Shown here: piece after piece, positions 3,078 through 21,604 of the stretch
How the letters are laid out: each line of letters opens with the position of its first letter
Position numbering within the stretch: the stretch's first letter is position 1
Assembly: GCF_000233435.1 (NCBI RefSeq)
Contig: NC_016146.1
Span: forward strand, 35,701-99,700
Reading direction: 5' to 3'
Origin: Blattabacterium sp. (Mastotermes darwiniensis) str. MADAR
GTDB taxonomy: Bacteria; Bacteroidota; Bacteroidia; Flavobacteriales; Blattabacteriaceae
Length of the DNA: 64,000 bases
Translations under genes and position numbers: made by a program
The notes under the pieces: generated by a model
What the model was told of the DNA's origin: nothing
The model's database searches: none
The model's input: the letters and a program-made list of their open reading frames with translations, nothing else

Positions 3078-4073
3078 ATGAACGAAAAATTTGAACAAAA
3101 AAAAAAATCTCTAAGACTTGTGTTGGATAAAATGGATAGAATCTATGGAAAAGGAACCATAATGCGTATGGGAGATTCACATATAGAAAACTTAGAAATT
3201 GTCCCTTCCGGATCTATAAGCTTAGATATAGCATTGGGTATTAGAGGATTCCCTAAAGGTCGTATTATAGAAATATTTGGACCAGAATCTTCTGGTAAAA
3301 CTACTTTAGCTTTACATGCTATTGCTCAATCACAAAAGATTGGTGGTTTTGCAGGATTTATTGATGCCGAACATGCTTTTGATTGTGTGTATGCAAAAAA
3401 AATAGGTGTTGACACAAAAGAATTAATTATTTCTCAACCAGATAATGGAGAACAAGCACTTGAAATAGTGAATCATTTAATTAGATCTGGTGTTATTGAT
3501 ATGATAGTGGTGGATTCAGTAGCTGCTTTAACTCCAAAAAGCGAAATTGAAGGAGAAATGGGAGATTCTAAAATAGGATTACAAGCTAGATTGATGTCTC
3601 AGGCTCTTAGAAAACTTACTTCTAGCATAGGAAAATCTAAGAGTATACTTATATTTATTAATCAATTACGGGAAAAAATTGGAGTTTATGGAAATCCAGA
3701 AGTGACTACTGGAGGAAATGCTTTAAAATTTTATTCTTCTATACGATTGGATATTCGTAAAGGAAATCCGATTAAAAACGGAGAAAAAATTTTAGGAAAT
3801 AGAACAAAAGTAAAAGTAGTAAAGAATAAACTTTCTCCTCCTTTTAAAACTGCTGAATTTGATATTATGTACGGAGAAGGAATTTCCAATATAGGAGAAA
3901 TTCTTGATTTAGGGGTAGATTTGGGGTTAATTAAAAAAAATGGATCTTGGTTTAGTTATGGAACTATGAAATTAGGTCAAGGAAGGGATTCCGTAAAAGA
4001 GTTTTTGAAAGAGGAAAAAAATATTATAAATGAAATGCAAAAAAATATACTAAATCACTATCTTCAAGAATAA
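3078..4073 (+). CDS. recA: Recombinase RecA
   Basis: ATP-dependent strand-exchange protein for homologous recombination. The ATG at 3078 gives a 331-residue protein starting [10 protein letters not shown]; the longer frame from a TTG at 3048 would add ten unrelated residues. Walker A is GPESSGKT at about residues 68-75 and Walker B is in the [10 protein letters not shown] stretch. The loop region [16 protein letters not shown] is family-typical. The C-terminus is slightly shorter than in E. coli but all core motifs are present, so it appears functional. An 11-base A tract (3097-3107) lies in codons 7-10 and is in frame. No lexA gene is seen in the window. Confidence 0.97.
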
Positions 4074-4082
4074 CAATAATAT

Positions 4083-4844
4083 ATGAGAATTACTTTTTTA
4101 GGTACTGGAACCTCACAGGGAGTTCCACTTATTGGATCTAAACATCCCGTATGTTTATCCGATAATCCAAAAGATAAAAGACTTCGAAGTTCTATTCTTA
4201 TAGAAAAGAACCATAAAATTTTTTTGATAGATTGTGGTCCTGATTTTCGTTATCAAATGTTAAGAAGCCATCATAAAAAATTGAATGCTATTTTTATTAC
4301 ACATGAACATTACGATCATATAGGTGGATTAGATGATTTAAGACCTATCAATCTTAAGATCAAAAAACCTATTCCAGTTTATGGATTACGTCGTGTATTA
4401 GAAAATTTAAAAAAACGATTTTACTATATTTTTTCAGAAAATAAATCAAATACTTCTAAAATTTCTATTCATGAATTGGATGATGATACGGATTTTTTTT
4501 TGGTAGAATATTTTAAAGTTTTTCCTTTATCCATATTGCATGGAGCTCTTCCTATCTTAGGATTTCGTATAGAAGATTTTGCTTATATAACAGATGCGAG
4601 TAGTATTCCTATTCCTACCATGAAAAAATTAAGAGGTTTGAATGTTTTAGTCTTAAATGTGTTGAGAAAAGTACCAAAGCACCACTCTCATTTTACTTTA
4701 TCTGAATCATTGAAAATGGTTCAAAAAATTGCCCCTAAAAAAACTTATTTGACGCATATAAGTCACTTGCTCGGTTTTCATGAGGATATTCAGAAGAAAT
4801 TGCCTAAAAATGTTTATTTAGCTTATGATGGGTTAATTATTTAG
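4083..4844 (+). CDS. MBL-fold metallohydrolase, PhnP-like
   Basis: Metallo-beta-lactamase-fold hydrolase of 253 residues, cytoplasmic. The N-terminal FLGTGTSQGVP strand and the metal-binding HEHYDHIGGLDDLRP motif (HxHxDH) are clear. Further ligands are likely Asp in ITDASSI and His in LTHISHLLGFH. This arrangement is found in PhnP-type cyclic phosphodiesterases and related Bacteroidetes MBL proteins. The physiological substrate cannot be read from the sequence, and no phosphonate genes are nearby. It starts 9 bases after recA and is probably cotranscribed with it. Confidence 0.85.
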   Translation: MRITFLGTGTSQGVPLIGSKHPVCLSDNPKDKRLRSSILIEKNHKIFLIDCGPDFRYQMLRSHHKKLNAIFITHEHYDHIGGLDDLRPINLKIKKPIPVYGLRRVLENLKKRFYYIFSENKSNTSKISIHELDDDTDFFLVEYFKVFPLSILHGALPILGFRIEDFAYITDASSIPIPTMKKLRGLNVLVLNVLRKVPKHHSHFTLSESLKMVQKIAPKKTYLTHISHLLGFHEDIQKKLPKNVYLAYDGLII

Positions 4845-16832: not shown

Positions 16833-18020
16833 ATGAATTTACATGAATTCCAAGGTAGGGAAATATTAAATTCTTTTTCCGTTAAAGTTCCTGATGGTAT
16901 CGTTGCTAATACTCCAGAAAAAGCTGTAAAAGCTGCAAAAGTAATCTTAGAACGAACCAATAAAAAATCTTTAGTTATTAAAGCACAAATACATGCAGGT
17001 GGTCGTGGAAAAGGTGGAGGTATACAAGTTGTAAAATCTATGGAAGAAGTATATGAAAAATCTAAAAATATTTTAGGAAAACCTTTAATTACTCCACAAA
17101 CTTCAAAAAGAGGAAAATTAGTTCGTAAAGTTCTAATTTCTGAAAATGTATATTCTTGTTCTCATCCTACTAAAGAATATTATCTATCGATATTGCTAGA
17201 TCGTGATCTAGAAAAAAATGTTATCATATATTCTAAAGAAGGAGGAATGGATATTGAAGAAATATCTAAAAAACATCCAGATAAAATCTATTTAGAAAAA
17301 ATAGATCCTGTATGGGGGATCCAACTATTTCAAGCTAGGAAAATAGGATTTGATTTAGGGATTAAAAAATATTTCAGCGATTTTTTAATTTCTCTTTACA
17401 ATGCTTATTTATCTTGTGACGCTTTATTATTAGAGATAAATCCTTTAATTCATACATTCGATAATAAAATTATAGCCGTAGACATTAAAATGATATTGGA
17501 TGATAATGCTTTATTTCGTCATAAGGAATACGCCAATATGCGTGATAAAAAAGAAGAAGATCCTATTGAAATAGAAGCTATCGAATCCAAATTGAATTTT
17601 ATAAAATTGGAAGGAAATGTAGGATGTATGGTGAATGGAGCAGGATTAGCTATGGCTACTATGGATATGATTCAATCTTGTGGAGGAAAACCTTCTAATT
17701 TTTTGGATATAGGAGGAGATGCTGATAAGAAACGTGTAGAAAAAGCATTTCGTCTTATATTGAAAGATCCATCAGTTCAAGCCGTATTGATAAATATTTT
17801 TGGAGGAATTGTTCGTTGTGATACAGTGGCAGAAGGAATTATTAATTCCTATCACCATAACCATGATAAAAAAATACCGGTTATTATTCGTTTACAAGGA
17901 ACTAATGAAATAATAGGAAAGAAAATACTTGAAAATAGTCAATTACCAATTTTTTATACTTCCACTTTAAAAGAAGCATCTGATAAAATTAAAGAAATAT
18001 TAAATTGTAATAATGGATAA
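16833..18020 (+). CDS. sucC: Succinyl-CoA ligase (ADP-forming) beta subunit
   Basis: Converts succinyl-CoA to succinate with ATP or GTP formation; requires SucD, which is not in this window. 395 residues, normal length. The ATP-grasp domain starts with MNLHEFQGREIL and includes KAQIHAGGRGKGGG; the C-terminal CoA-ligase part includes FLDIGGDAD and FGGIVRCD. It overlaps dnaX by 8 bases, so the two are probably translated from one transcript although they are unrelated in function. Together with sucAB it supplies the 2-oxoglutarate to succinate part of the TCA cycle. Confidence 0.96.
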   Translation: MNLHEFQGREILNSFSVKVPDGIVANTPEKAVKAAKVILERTNKKSLVIKAQIHAGGRGKGGGIQVVKSMEEVYEKSKNILGKPLITPQTSKRGKLVRKVLISENVYSCSHPTKEYYLSILLDRDLEKNVIIYSKEGGMDIEEISKKHPDKIYLEKIDPVWGIQLFQARKIGFDLGIKKYFSDFLISLYNAYLSCDALLLEINPLIHTFDNKIIAVDIKMILDDNALFRHKEYANMRDKKEEDPIEIEAIESKLNFIKLEGNVGCMVNGAGLAMATMDMIQSCGGKPSNFLDIGGDADKKRVEKAFRLILKDPSVQAVLINIFGGIVRCDTVAEGIINSYHHNHDKKIPVIIRLQGTNEIIGKKILENSQLPIFYTSTLKEASDKIKEILNCNNG

Positions 18021-19458
18021 AAGTTTTTATCATATTGTATTGACTAGAAAATATAGACCTGTAAAATGGAATGAAGTGATTGGACAAAATGAAGTTATAA
18101 TTGTTTTAAAAAAGGCAATTGAAAAAAATCGTTTATCTCAATTTTTATTTTTTTTTGGACCAAAAGGAGTTGGAAAAAATACATGTGCACGAATTTTAGC
18201 TAGTGAATTGAATTCATTTTCTGAAGAAGAATCTCCATATGTTTTTGAAATTAGTGGAATTTTCCATAATTCCAGAGAAATCATTTGTGAAATCATCGGA
18301 AAAATTCGTTTACATCCAAAAAAAGGAAAATATAAAATATTTATCATAAATGATGTGCACTTTTTTTCTCAAGACTCTTTCAATATCTTTTTCCATATGA
18401 TGGAAAAATCTCCTTCACATGCATTATTTATTTTTTGTATTACAAAAAAAAATGGAATACTAGATCCCATAATTTCACGTAGTCAAGTTTATGAATTTAA
18501 ACGTATTTCTTTAAAAGAAATTTATTTCCATTTGAAAGAAATAATGGAAAAAGAAGGAATTCAAATAGAAAAAGAAGCTTTATTTCTCATTGCACAATAT
18601 GGAAATGGATCAATGAGTAAAGCTATTTCCACTTTTGACAAACTTTCCTTCTGGAACTATGAAAAAAAAAAAATTACTAAGGAATTTGTGATGGAAAAAC
18701 TAGGGATTTTGGATCCCTTTTACTATTTTAAAATAATAGATTATCTATTGGATGAAAAAATATATAAAATATTAATTTTATTGGATCAAATATTTCAAAA
18801 AGGAGTAGATCCTATCAGTTTTATAATAGGTTTAACCAAACATTTTAGAAATTTATTTCTTTCTAAAAATTACGAAACTATCTCTCTTTTAAAAGATGAA
18901 AAAAAAACCATACAATCTTATATCCATCAATCAAAAAAATTATCTTTTTCTTTTTTAATTAACGCTTTAATGATTTGTCGTAAAATGGAAGATAAATATG
19001 AAATGAGTAAAAATTTTAATAGATTAACAATAGAATTATATCTAATACAATTAGCTAATAGTATTTCTTCCTATAATCCTAATTATTTTTTTTTAAAAAA
19101 TAAAAAAATTCAATATTTACAAGAATTTTGGAAAAATTTTATACATAAGTTTTCCGAAAAAATAAATCCTGTTTATTTAAATACTTTAAAAAATGAAATA
19201 AAATTTCAAATTTTAAAAAATAGGATAATTATGATCATTCCTTCTCAATTAGAAATTCGTGAATTTTTCTTAATTCAAACCTATTTTATCAAACATTGTA
19301 GAATTAAATTAAAGAATCCTCATTTAGAATTTAAAACTATAATAAAACAATTAGAAAATTATCCAATCAAAGAATACAATTTTTTATCTAAAAAAAACAA
19401 ATGTGTAGAAGAATTGATAGAAAGATTAAATTTAAAATTTTCATCTTCTATACAATAA
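18013..19458 (+). CDS. dnaX: DNA polymerase III gamma/tau subunit, degenerate ATPase motifs
   Basis: Clamp-loader and replisome-organising subunit, 481 residues. The N-terminus (LTRKYRPVKWNEVIGQ) and the GPKGVGKN-TCARIL segment identify DnaX. Several key positions deviate. In Walker A the Mg-binding Thr after the Lys is Asn (residue 56). Walker B reads IINDVH instead of the usual IIDEVH (Asn113-Asp114). The zinc module is gone: no cysteines remain between the P-loop and Walker B apart from Cys92. The arginine finger survives as ISRSQ. The C-terminal part (about 360-481) is diverged. This reads as a protein that may bind ATP poorly or not hydrolyse it. It contains an in-frame A12 tract at 18662-18673. 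Confidence 0.9.
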   Translation: MDKSFYHIVLTRKYRPVKWNEVIGQNEVIIVLKKAIEKNRLSQFLFFFGPKGVGKNTCARILASELNSFSEEESPYVFEISGIFHNSREIICEIIGKIRLHPKKGKYKIFIINDVHFFSQDSFNIFFHMMEKSPSHALFIFCITKKNGILDPIISRSQVYEFKRISLKEIYFHLKEIMEKEGIQIEKEALFLIAQYGNGSMSKAISTFDKLSFWNYEKKKITKEFVMEKLGILDPFYYFKIIDYLLDEKIYKILILLDQIFQKGVDPISFIIGLTKHFRNLFLSKNYETISLLKDEKKTIQSYIHQSKKLSFSFLINALMICRKMEDKYEMSKNFNRLTIELYLIQLANSISSYNPNYFFLKNKKIQYLQEFWKNFIHKFSEKINPVYLNTLKNEIKFQILKNRIIMIIPSQLEIREFFLIQTYFIKHCRIKLKNPHLEFKTIIKQLENYPIKEYNFLSKKNKCVEELIERLNLKFSSSIQ

Positions 19459-19510
19459 AAGAATTGTATATTTGTTGATAAGATACTTTATACAAATATT
19501 TTTTGTTTTT

Positions 19511-21604
19511 ATGAAACAGAGAATTTTTTTTTCTTCTACTTATTCAGATGAAGATATTGAAAACGATGGGACTACTGCTTCTTACGGAGGTGGATCTGGA
19601 GGTGGGACTGGCGGAAGTACGGGTTCTAGTTATTATGGAGGGACTTCTATAAGAAGTAAAACTCCTGTATTGGACAATTTTGGAATAGATTTAAATTCTA
19701 TAGCCATTGAAGGGAAATTAGATCCAGTAGTAGGAAGAGATAAAGAAGTTGAACGAGTATCTCAAATATTGAGTAGAAGAAAAAAGAATAATCCTCTTCT
19801 AATAGGAGAACCAGGAGTAGGGAAATCTGCTATTGCTGAGGGTTTTGTCTTACGTATTGTACAAAAAAAGGTTTCCAGAGTTTTATATAATAAAAGAGTG
19901 GTTGTTTTAGATTTGGCTAGCTTAGTCGCTGGAACTAAATATAGAGGTCAGTTTGAAGAAAGAATGAAAGCTATCATAAACGAATCAGAAAAAAATAAAG
20001 ATTTAATTCTTTTCATAGATGAAATCCATACTATGATTGGTGCAGGAGGTACTACAGGGTCCTTGGATGCTTCTAATATATTCAAACCTGCTTTAGCAAG
20101 AGGATATATTCAATGTATTGGAGCAACTACCTTAAATGAATATAGACAATATATAGAAAAGGATGGGGCTTTGGAACGTAGATTTCAAAAAATTATAGTA
20201 CAGCCTTCTTCTGAAAAAGAAACTATGGAAATTTTAAAAAAAATAAAAGGAAGGTATGAAAGTCATCATAATGTTATTTATACAGAAGCTACTATAAAAT
20301 CTTGTGTAAATCTAACCGTACGATATATTGTTGATCGTTTTTTACCAGATAAAGCCATTGATGCACTAGATGAGGCTGGATCTCGTGTACATATTAAGAA
20401 TATTAAAGTGCCACAAGAAGTGGTTGTTTTAGAAAAAAAATTGGATAATATTCGAAAAGAAAAATCTAAAGTAGTTAAGAATCAAAAATATGAAGAAGCG
20501 GCACGTCTTCGTGATACGGAAAAAAAAATAGAAAAACAATTGATAAAAGCGCAAGTAGAATGGGAAGAAACCTCCAAAGAAAATAAAGAAATTGTTTCTG
20601 AAGAAGACGTAGAAGAAGTAGTATCTATGATGAGTGGAGTTCCGGTAAATAGAATCGCCCAAGCGGAAATGAACAGGTTGAATAAAATGATTGATACATT
20701 AAAGGAAAAAATAATAGGACAAGATGAAGCTGTAGAAAAAATAGTAAAAGCGGTTCAGAGGAATAGAACTGGATTAAAAGATCCTAATAGTCCTATAGGA
20801 TCTTTTATTTTTTTAGGAAAGACAGGAGTTGGAAAAACTTATTTAGCAAAAGTTTTTGCGAGGGAACTATTTGATTCAGAAGAATCCTTAGTACGTATTG
20901 ATATGAGTGAATATATGGAAAAATTTTCTGTTTCTAGATTAATAGGAGCTCCTCCTGGTTATGTTGGGTATGAAGAAGGAGGACAACTAACAGAAATAAT
21001 ACGTCGTAAGCCTTATTCGGTTATTTTATTGGATGAAATAGAAAAAGCACATCATGAAGTATTCAATATACTATTGCAGATTCTTGATTATGGATGCGTT
21101 ACAGATAGTGTTGGAAGAAAAATTAACTTTAAAAATACTGTCATCATTTGTACTTCAAATACAGATACACAAAAATTAAAAAGAATTGGTCAAGAAATCG
21201 GTTTTTATACTCAAACAAGAAAATCGATGGATTCTAACTTAGAACAGACTTTGAAAAAGAGTTTTTCTCCAGAATTTATAAATAGAATAGATGATATCAT
21301 CATTTTTAATTCTCTAAAAATAGAAGATATATCTAAAATAACCCATATAGAATTAGAAAAAGTAAAAAATCAGATGTTGGATTTAGGATATAAGTTAACT
21401 TTTCTTTCCGAAGTAAAAGATTTCATTAATAAAAAAGGATTTAATAAAGAATATGGAGCTCGTCCATTAAAGAGAGTAATAGAAAAATTTATAAAGAATC
21501 CCATATCGGAATGGATTATTAATGGATCTTTGAAAAGAGGAGATGAAATAATATTGAAAATAAACGATAATAAAGATGATATTAAAGTTTATAAAAAATC
21601 ATAA
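19511..21604 (+). CDS. clpC: ClpC-type AAA+ unfoldase lacking the N-terminal Clp_N domain
   Basis: ATP-dependent unfoldase partner of ClpP, about 697 residues from the ATG at 19511; the frame reaches back to a TTG at 19472. Two AAA+ domains are intact: GEPGVGKS and LFIDEIHTMIG in the first, GKTGVGKT and LLDEIEKAH in the second. The coiled-coil middle domain (RDTEKKIEKQ region) lies between them. An EIGF tripeptide suggests a ClpP-binding loop. Flavobacterial ClpC normally begins with about 140 residues of Clp_N substrate and adaptor domain. Here only about 48 residues precede the core, including a Gly/Ser-rich stretch (about 23-45). Upstream is dnaX, so the missing domain is not nearby. Confidence 0.93.
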   Translation: MKQRIFFSSTYSDEDIENDGTTASYGGGSGGGTGGSTGSSYYGGTSIRSKTPVLDNFGIDLNSIAIEGKLDPVVGRDKEVERVSQILSRRKKNNPLLIGEPGVGKSAIAEGFVLRIVQKKVSRVLYNKRVVVLDLASLVAGTKYRGQFEERMKAIINESEKNKDLILFIDEIHTMIGAGGTTGSLDASNIFKPALARGYIQCIGATTLNEYRQYIEKDGALERRFQKIIVQPSSEKETMEILKKIKGRYESHHNVIYTEATIKSCVNLTVRYIVDRFLPDKAIDALDEAGSRVHIKNIKVPQEVVVLEKKLDNIRKEKSKVVKNQKYEEAARLRDTEKKIEKQLIKAQVEWEETSKENKEIVSEEDVEEVVSMMSGVPVNRIAQAEMNRLNKMIDTLKEKIIGQDEAVEKIVKAVQRNRTGLKDPNSPIGSFIFLGKTGVGKTYLAKVFARELFDSEESLVRIDMSEYMEKFSVSRLIGAPPGYVGYEEGGQLTEIIRRKPYSVILLDEIEKAHHEVFNILLQILDYGCVTDSVGRKINFKNTVIICTSNTDTQKLKRIGQEIGFYTQTRKSMDSNLEQTLKKSFSPEFINRIDDIIIFNSLKIEDISKITHIELEKVKNQMLDLGYKLTFLSEVKDFINKKGFNKEYGARPLKRVIEKFIKNPISEWIINGSLKRGDEIILKINDNKDDIKVYKKS

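Follow-up and report, generated by a model that had tools for sequence, protein, structure and literature searches.

The dnaX gene in the window, by which we mean the whole stretch of 64,000 nucleotides analysed here, raises the question of whether a clamp-loader subunit with an altered ATPase site can still load a sliding clamp and, if it cannot, in what capacity it is kept. To our knowledge, ATP-driven clamp loading is regarded as a universal feature of replication in cells.

The dnaX locus and the predicted fold of its product

The ORF at 18013-19458 (all features given here are on the + strand), with an ATG at 18013 and a stop at 19458, encodes an orthologue of DnaX (gamma/tau) of 481 aa that, judged by its sequence, is an AAA+ pseudo-ATPase. 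It scores 253 bits against TIGR02397 (dnaX_nterm), an equivalog-level match given the cut-off of 250, while several other DnaX proteins of the genus score just under that cut-off; in Pfam, it matches the models of the DnaX lid and of gamma domain III besides PF13177. A single copy of dnaX is found in the genome to which the window belongs (590,336 bases in two contigs, the larger of 587,248), and the order sucC-dnaX-clpC is conserved in the genus. Both neighbors served as synteny markers: sucC (16833-18020) lies upstream and overlaps dnaX by 8 bases, and a clpC-type ATPase gene (19472-21604) lies downstream.

The AlphaFold2 model of the protein has a mean pLDDT of 87.8. Its top PDB matches are the gamma/tau chains of the E. 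coli clamp loader (Z 28.9, rmsd 3.4, 345 residues), a comparison that covers residues 6-356. In this model, the fold of domains I-III is intact, and the collar (domain III, residues 222-354, 18676-19074) is recognized by PF12169 as well as by the model helices. A tau-type C-terminal extension follows (residues 355-481, 19075-19455), with a predicted alpha/beta domain at approximately residues 386-472; it is in frame in 42/49 genomes of the genus. A run of twelve A in frame inside the gene (18662-18673) is a possible slippage site.

The ATPase site of the window DnaX

The Walker A motif, GPKGVGKNT (18157-18183, residues G49 to T57), keeps its glycines and its Lys (K55), and its Mg-binding Thr is replaced by Asn (N56, codon AAT, 18178-18180). 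In Walker B, FIINDVH (18340-18360), the Asp is replaced by Asn (N113, 18349-18351) and the Glu by Asp (D114, 18352-18354; AAT GAT). The translation thus agrees letter by letter with the GPKGVGKN and IINDVH readings of the original prediction, which had also reported, correctly, that the four zinc cysteines are missing: only C92 lies between the Walker motifs, with C58 beside Walker A, and there is no zinc module. Its statement that the arginine finger and the rest of the N-terminal fold remain is likewise borne out, both by the model and its E. coli matches and by the SRS motif (S155-R156-S157, 18475-18483), in which R156 (CGT, 18478-18480) is kept. The sensor-1 region, FCITK (18433-18447), retains in translation the Thr equivalent to E. 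coli T157 as T144 (18442-18444). One further loss can be added to those listed originally, as the sensor-2 Arg (E. coli R215) is replaced by Ser (S202, 18616-18618). The Walker, arginine-finger, and sensor-2 assignments were read from the translation together with the genus alignment.

Substitutions of this kind are poorly tolerated in characterized clamp loaders. In the T4 loader, neither Walker B acid can be substituted, and a loss of 200-fold or more already follows from Glu to Asp (PMC8121543). In RFC, mutation of the Walker B Glu abolishes the ligand-stimulated ATPase and the opening of the clamp and leaves even clamp binding poor, and eukaryotic Rfc5, with the Walker B change D141N and no trans arginine finger, is a naturally inactive RFC subunit (PMC3740443). 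On the basis of these T4, RFC, and Rfc5 comparisons, ATP hydrolysis by DnaX of the genus is very probably lost or minimal. Some residual hydrolysis may proceed through D114 or another acid, and nucleotide binding may remain, as suggested by the invariant P-loop described below.

Loss of ATPase residues across the genus

We searched 68 genomes of the taxonomic family and aligned all readable DnaX proteins. The genus set comprised 49 genomes (probably Blattabacterium; symbionts of cockroaches and one termite), from which 46 DnaX proteins were aligned. The comparison sets were free-living Flavobacteriales, with 43 DnaX readable at the Walker columns and 45 at sensor 2, and five proteins of sister-genus symbionts.

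At the Walker A Thr position, DnaX of the genus has Asn (41/46), Ser (4/46), or His (1/46) and never Thr (0/46); all readable free-living proteins (43/43) and all those from the sister genera (5/5) have Thr. Of the Walker B acids, Asp remains in 1/46 and Glu in 7/46, and no protein has both. The sensor-2 Arg is found in 0/46, against 45/45 free-living and 5/5 sister-genus proteins, and the arginine-finger Arg survives in 27/46. The Walker residues are all intact in the readable free-living Flavobacteriales and in the five sister-genus proteins, while none of the 46 proteins of the genus combines a Walker A Thr/Ser, both Walker B acids, and the sensor-2 Arg. P-loop residues G45, G48, G50, and K51 (E. 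coli numbering) are invariant (46/46). Beyond the P-loop, these proteins are strongly diverged, keeping on average 55% of the columns that are invariant in free-living species, and 38% in a clade without a clamp gene. The least altered protein (Ser, Asp, Asp at the three Walker positions) comes from a genome of the latter kind, G023, and has neither the arginine finger nor sensor 2.

The loss of ATPase residues is genus-wide and ancestral. Asn in 41/46 proteins, set against Thr in the free-living and sister proteins, rules out a sequencing slip or chance as the cause of N56. The alignment with free-living relatives, in which the altered residues are missing, leaves standing the original reading of a dead or weak ATPase on a structural DnaX; residues of the active site are lost throughout the genus on a fold that is predicted to be otherwise intact.

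The zinc module has to be taken out of this argument. Four zinc-binding cysteines are typical of E. coli DnaX and are not general. Roughly half of the free-living Flavobacteriales sampled lack them and have intact ATPase motifs, as do the DnaX of sister genera, which keep GKT, DEVH, and SRC. Because it is absent in many free-living relatives with intact motifs, the module is not diagnostic; its loss was rejected as a marker of a dead ATPase and does not belong to the ATPase story into which the original prediction had placed it.

Partner subunits

In the classical system, delta opens the clamp. The search for holA and holB that the original prediction had proposed detected neither gene in the 49 genomes of the genus. 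For holA (delta), the main matches to TIGR01128 in these genomes were dnaX itself, along with faint ones at a single other locus; the same family has matches in every one of the 14 control genomes and in five sister symbionts (G053, G067, G049/G050, and G054/G055 lineages). A profile built from sister HolA proteins gave no match in the 49 genomes, a search that has no positive control of its own and only supplements TIGR01128. For holB (delta-prime), PF13177 found only dnaX and a ClpB-type protein in the 49 genomes, and a profile of sister-genus HolB proteins found dnaX alone, so that a diverged holB was rejected. The curated holA and holB families match all or nearly all control genomes, and the same searches detect both genes in sister genera of symbionts that are just as reduced or more so.

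In the genome to which the window belongs, no other loader-like AAA+ protein was found besides dnaX. A second dnaX or a RarA-like substitute was considered and rejected, the AAA+ matches being dnaX and proteins that fit FtsH, Lon, RuvB, ClpB, and ClpC by size and position. Two genomes of a sister genus (G054 and G055 of g5) have holA, a holB-like gene, and dnaN with no dnaX match, the reverse of the pattern seen here.

The clamp

The clamp gene dnaN is present in 41/49 genomes of the genus, as a single frame in 38 and split in three (G016, G031, and G033), and absent from eight. These eight form one clade in the DnaE tree (support 0.997). In seven of them, the locus has closed up between its neighbors (G009, G010, G011, G023, G030, G039, and G040), and in the eighth (G015) dnaN is absent along with the preceding gene. 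Synteny therefore excludes that dnaN or dnaX was merely overlooked through divergence, since the genes are gone from between their neighbors. A dnaN pseudogene was noted earlier in one Blattabacterium (PMC6039017), and the Bge genome paper lists dnaN among the genes not found near the origin.

Where it is retained, DnaN is diverged: the protein of the window genome scores 151 bits, against about 210-265 in most sister genera. Its model (pLDDT 86.5) has a three-domain clamp fold, the closest match being the Elizabethkingia beta clamp. At L077 and other dnaN loci of the genus, the C-terminal VMPM motif of the clamp has become IMS. The net charge of the clamp at these loci is +12 to +45, compared with -11 in E. 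coli; some sister symbionts have basic clamps too. Retention of the clamp for mismatch repair via MutL found no support, as MutL is present in all 49 genomes, the clampless ones included.

The replicative polymerase and its clamp-binding motif

DnaE with a fused exonuclease is the replicative polymerase in 49/49 genomes of the genus. The internal clamp-binding motif of DnaE (QxSLF, QxxMF, or DLF) occurs in 20/20 free-living proteins and in the seven sister genomes that have a clamp (G053, G067, G049, G050, G054, G055, and G065). When looked for in the 49 genomes of the genus, it was missing from all of them. It is also lost in the clampless relatives G051, G052, and G057 (dnaE loci L240, L241, and L243). 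By its sequence, DnaE of the genus thus resembles polymerases from species that have no clamp, and it does so also in those genomes that retain dnaN, although it may have another clamp-docking site.

Retention of dnaX and selection

A full-length dnaX frame is found in 42/49 genomes, five of which have no clamp (G010, G011, G015, G023, and G040). Four genomes (G004, G009, G022, and G048) have a frame that is interrupted at the linker. In G039, which also lacks dnaN, the AAA+ module is gone and only residues 220-478 stay open (L060, about 3461-4264). The gene has disappeared from G025, by a clean deletion that leaves approximately 208 bp, and from G030, where 790 bp hold no recognizable remnant of the decayed gene. 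DnaX is not essential everywhere, being lost in G025 and G030, shortened in G039, and frameshifted in four more. Five genomes have DnaX without a clamp and G025 has an intact DnaN (395 aa) without DnaX, so retention of the two genes is separable.

Three of the linker breaks (L046 in G004, L042 in G022, and L043 in G048) fall at an A11 run in the stretch that links domain III to the C-terminal domain. A stop follows directly (EEKKK*) and would yield a gamma-like short product, and G034, the closest relative of G022, has A10 in frame at this linker. The A11 run is a possible slippage site recalling gamma/tau frameshifting, or a homopolymer error.

Selection was assessed by a simple counting method in nine close clamp-bearing pairs and compared with neutral simulations under AT-biased mutation. 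Omega was 0.355 for DnaX, 0.346 for DnaN, and 0.175 for DnaE, while the simulations gave 0.77-0.88 with a lower 2.5% limit at 0.68-0.76; DnaX and DnaN both fall below every bound. DnaX is thus under purifying selection where the clamp persists. In these pairs, the AAA+ module (omega 0.351) is constrained as much as the other DnaX domains. In the single clampless pair G010/G040, the AAA+ module, at 0.62, evolves nearly neutrally, against 0.30-0.39 for the lid, collar, and C-terminus, and in another single clampless pair, G011/G023, near-neutral evolution extends to the whole gene (0.78). One further pair, G006/G014, has raised values (DnaX 0.63 and DnaN 0.87).

Discussion

DnaX of the genus is most likely no longer a clamp loader, because delta and delta-prime are undetectable, the DnaE motif is lost, and DnaX is kept in five clampless genomes. 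The same observations weaken the suggestion of the original prediction that the protein serves a clamp loader whose mechanism is non-classical. With the ATPase residues of DnaX lost, its partners undetectable, and the docking motif of DnaE gone, the chromosome is probably copied without a normally loaded clamp.

The reading that we favor, with about even confidence, is that DnaX, having become a P-loop pseudo-ATPase, is retained for a tau-type scaffold role and not as a working clamp loader. The only DnaX of the genus would have become a pseudo-ATPase that keeps its AAA+, lid, collar, and C-terminal architecture. It probably still binds nucleotide, and would have neither a useful rate of hydrolysis nor classical clamp loading. 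The collar would oligomerize it, and the C-terminal domain would tether DnaE and possibly the helicase too. Replication would then fall to DnaE with its fused exonuclease, without a clamp loaded in the canonical way. Among the observations in favor of this reading are the lower omega of lid, collar, and C-terminus in clampless G010/G040 and the open residues 220-478 in G039. A scaffold role confined to the C-terminus leaves the constraint on the AAA+ module unexplained, and this constraint, seen in clamp-bearing pairs, hints at a remaining contact between DnaX and the clamp.

As the main alternative, DnaX and DnaN could be leftovers of a dismantled clamp system in slow decay, with no role in replication, their frames kept open by a weak residual constraint such as the cost of misfolding or aggregation, or by the short time since the loss. 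The loss or breakage of dnaX in 7/49 genomes, the near-neutral or raised omega values in G011/G023 and G006/G014, and the strong divergence beyond the P-loop (to 38% of invariant columns in the clampless clade) all fit such decay. We nevertheless find it less likely than the scaffold, since 42/49 frames are full-length across a radiation whose host families go back to a common ancestor some 140 million years ago (PMC6128925), omega in clamp-bearing pairs lies under every neutral bound for both proteins, and these genomes do delete unused genes, as the clean deletions of dnaN and dnaX illustrate.

It is less probable still that a residual, non-classical loader persists, in which DnaX binds nucleotide without hydrolyzing it and, without delta or delta-prime, holds or opens DnaN by binding energy or stabilizes its spontaneous opening. 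Such a loader would account for the P-loop in 46/46 proteins, for an AAA+ module whose constraint matches that of the remaining domains only in clamp-bearing pairs, and for a DnaN that has its own constraint and a confidently predicted three-domain clamp fold. It would have to work in the absence of delta, the classical clamp opener. In RFC, mutants in the Walker B Glu perform poorly even in binding and opening the clamp (PMC3740443). Nor would DnaE, lacking a clamp motif, profit from such a loader, and the occurrence of DnaN without DnaX in G025, and of DnaX without DnaN in five genomes, speaks against it as well. Finally, symbiont proteins diverge fast and a very diverged delta could be missed, but it is very improbable that the missing subunits or energy come from host-encoded proteins or from delta and delta-prime diverged past detection, given that the same searches succeed in sister symbionts no less reduced than these, that within the genus nothing but dnaX answers to the holB profile, and that the active site of DnaX is lost regardless of partners.

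The scaffold that we favor can be set beside known clamp-loader subunits. The window DnaX resembles E. coli DnaX (TIGR02397; 3glf, 1jr3, and 8gj0) in sequence and fold over residues 6-356, in the P-loop Gly and Lys, in the arginine finger and the collar, and in its C-terminal extension; it differs in the replaced Walker A Thr, Walker B Asp and Glu, and sensor-2 Arg, and in having no delta or delta-prime partner. E. coli delta-prime (HolB) is a loader subunit without a functional ATP site, a structural AAA+ role without hydrolysis like that proposed here. Unlike the window DnaX, delta-prime lacks an intact P-loop and a tau C-terminus and works beside an active DnaX. With Rfc5, a structural clamp-loader AAA+ subunit with little or no ATPase, our protein shares the Walker B change from Asp to Asn and, as far as its residues allow a prediction, the inactivity. 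RFC, however, has four other subunits that hydrolyze ATP, whereas the window DnaX is the only loader-like subunit.

Among the most reduced symbionts, the clamp system is already known to have been lost in Carsonella (PMC2175510), in Portiera of Bemisia tabaci (PMC5322561), and in part in Uzinura and Sulcia (PMC3971599). There, as in this genus, holA, holB, dnaX, and/or dnaN are lost and dnaE remains. In those symbionts whole genes are missing, whereas most lineages of this genus hold an ATPase-dead DnaX and a clamp as open frames under selection. In the literature covered, we found no description of an ATPase-dead DnaX, or of missing delta, delta-prime, or DnaE motif, in the genus, although the main papers on its gene loss, which lie outside that coverage, may tabulate the gene losses themselves.

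The data support an early loss, before the genus radiated, of the ATPase residues together with delta, delta-prime, and the clamp motif of DnaE; the clamp in one clade and DnaX in two lineages were lost later. The last common ancestor of the host families lived approximately 140 million years ago (PMC6128925). Somewhat more tentatively than the scaffold itself, we propose that a chromosome of roughly 0.6 Mb has been replicated without an ATP-driven loader since before the modern cockroach families split, with the pseudo-ATPase DnaX as a polymerase scaffold and with a retained clamp to which the replicative polymerase would not dock and that would load itself or be used by other proteins.

The genus holds intermediate stages side by side, with a dead loader and a clamp, a dead loader without a clamp, a clamp without a loader, or neither, and the order of loss can be read from 49 genomes. 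It is therefore a setting in which it can be tested whether the scaffold role of tau is separable from clamp loading, and what role is left for a clamp that nothing can load and to which the polymerase does not bind.
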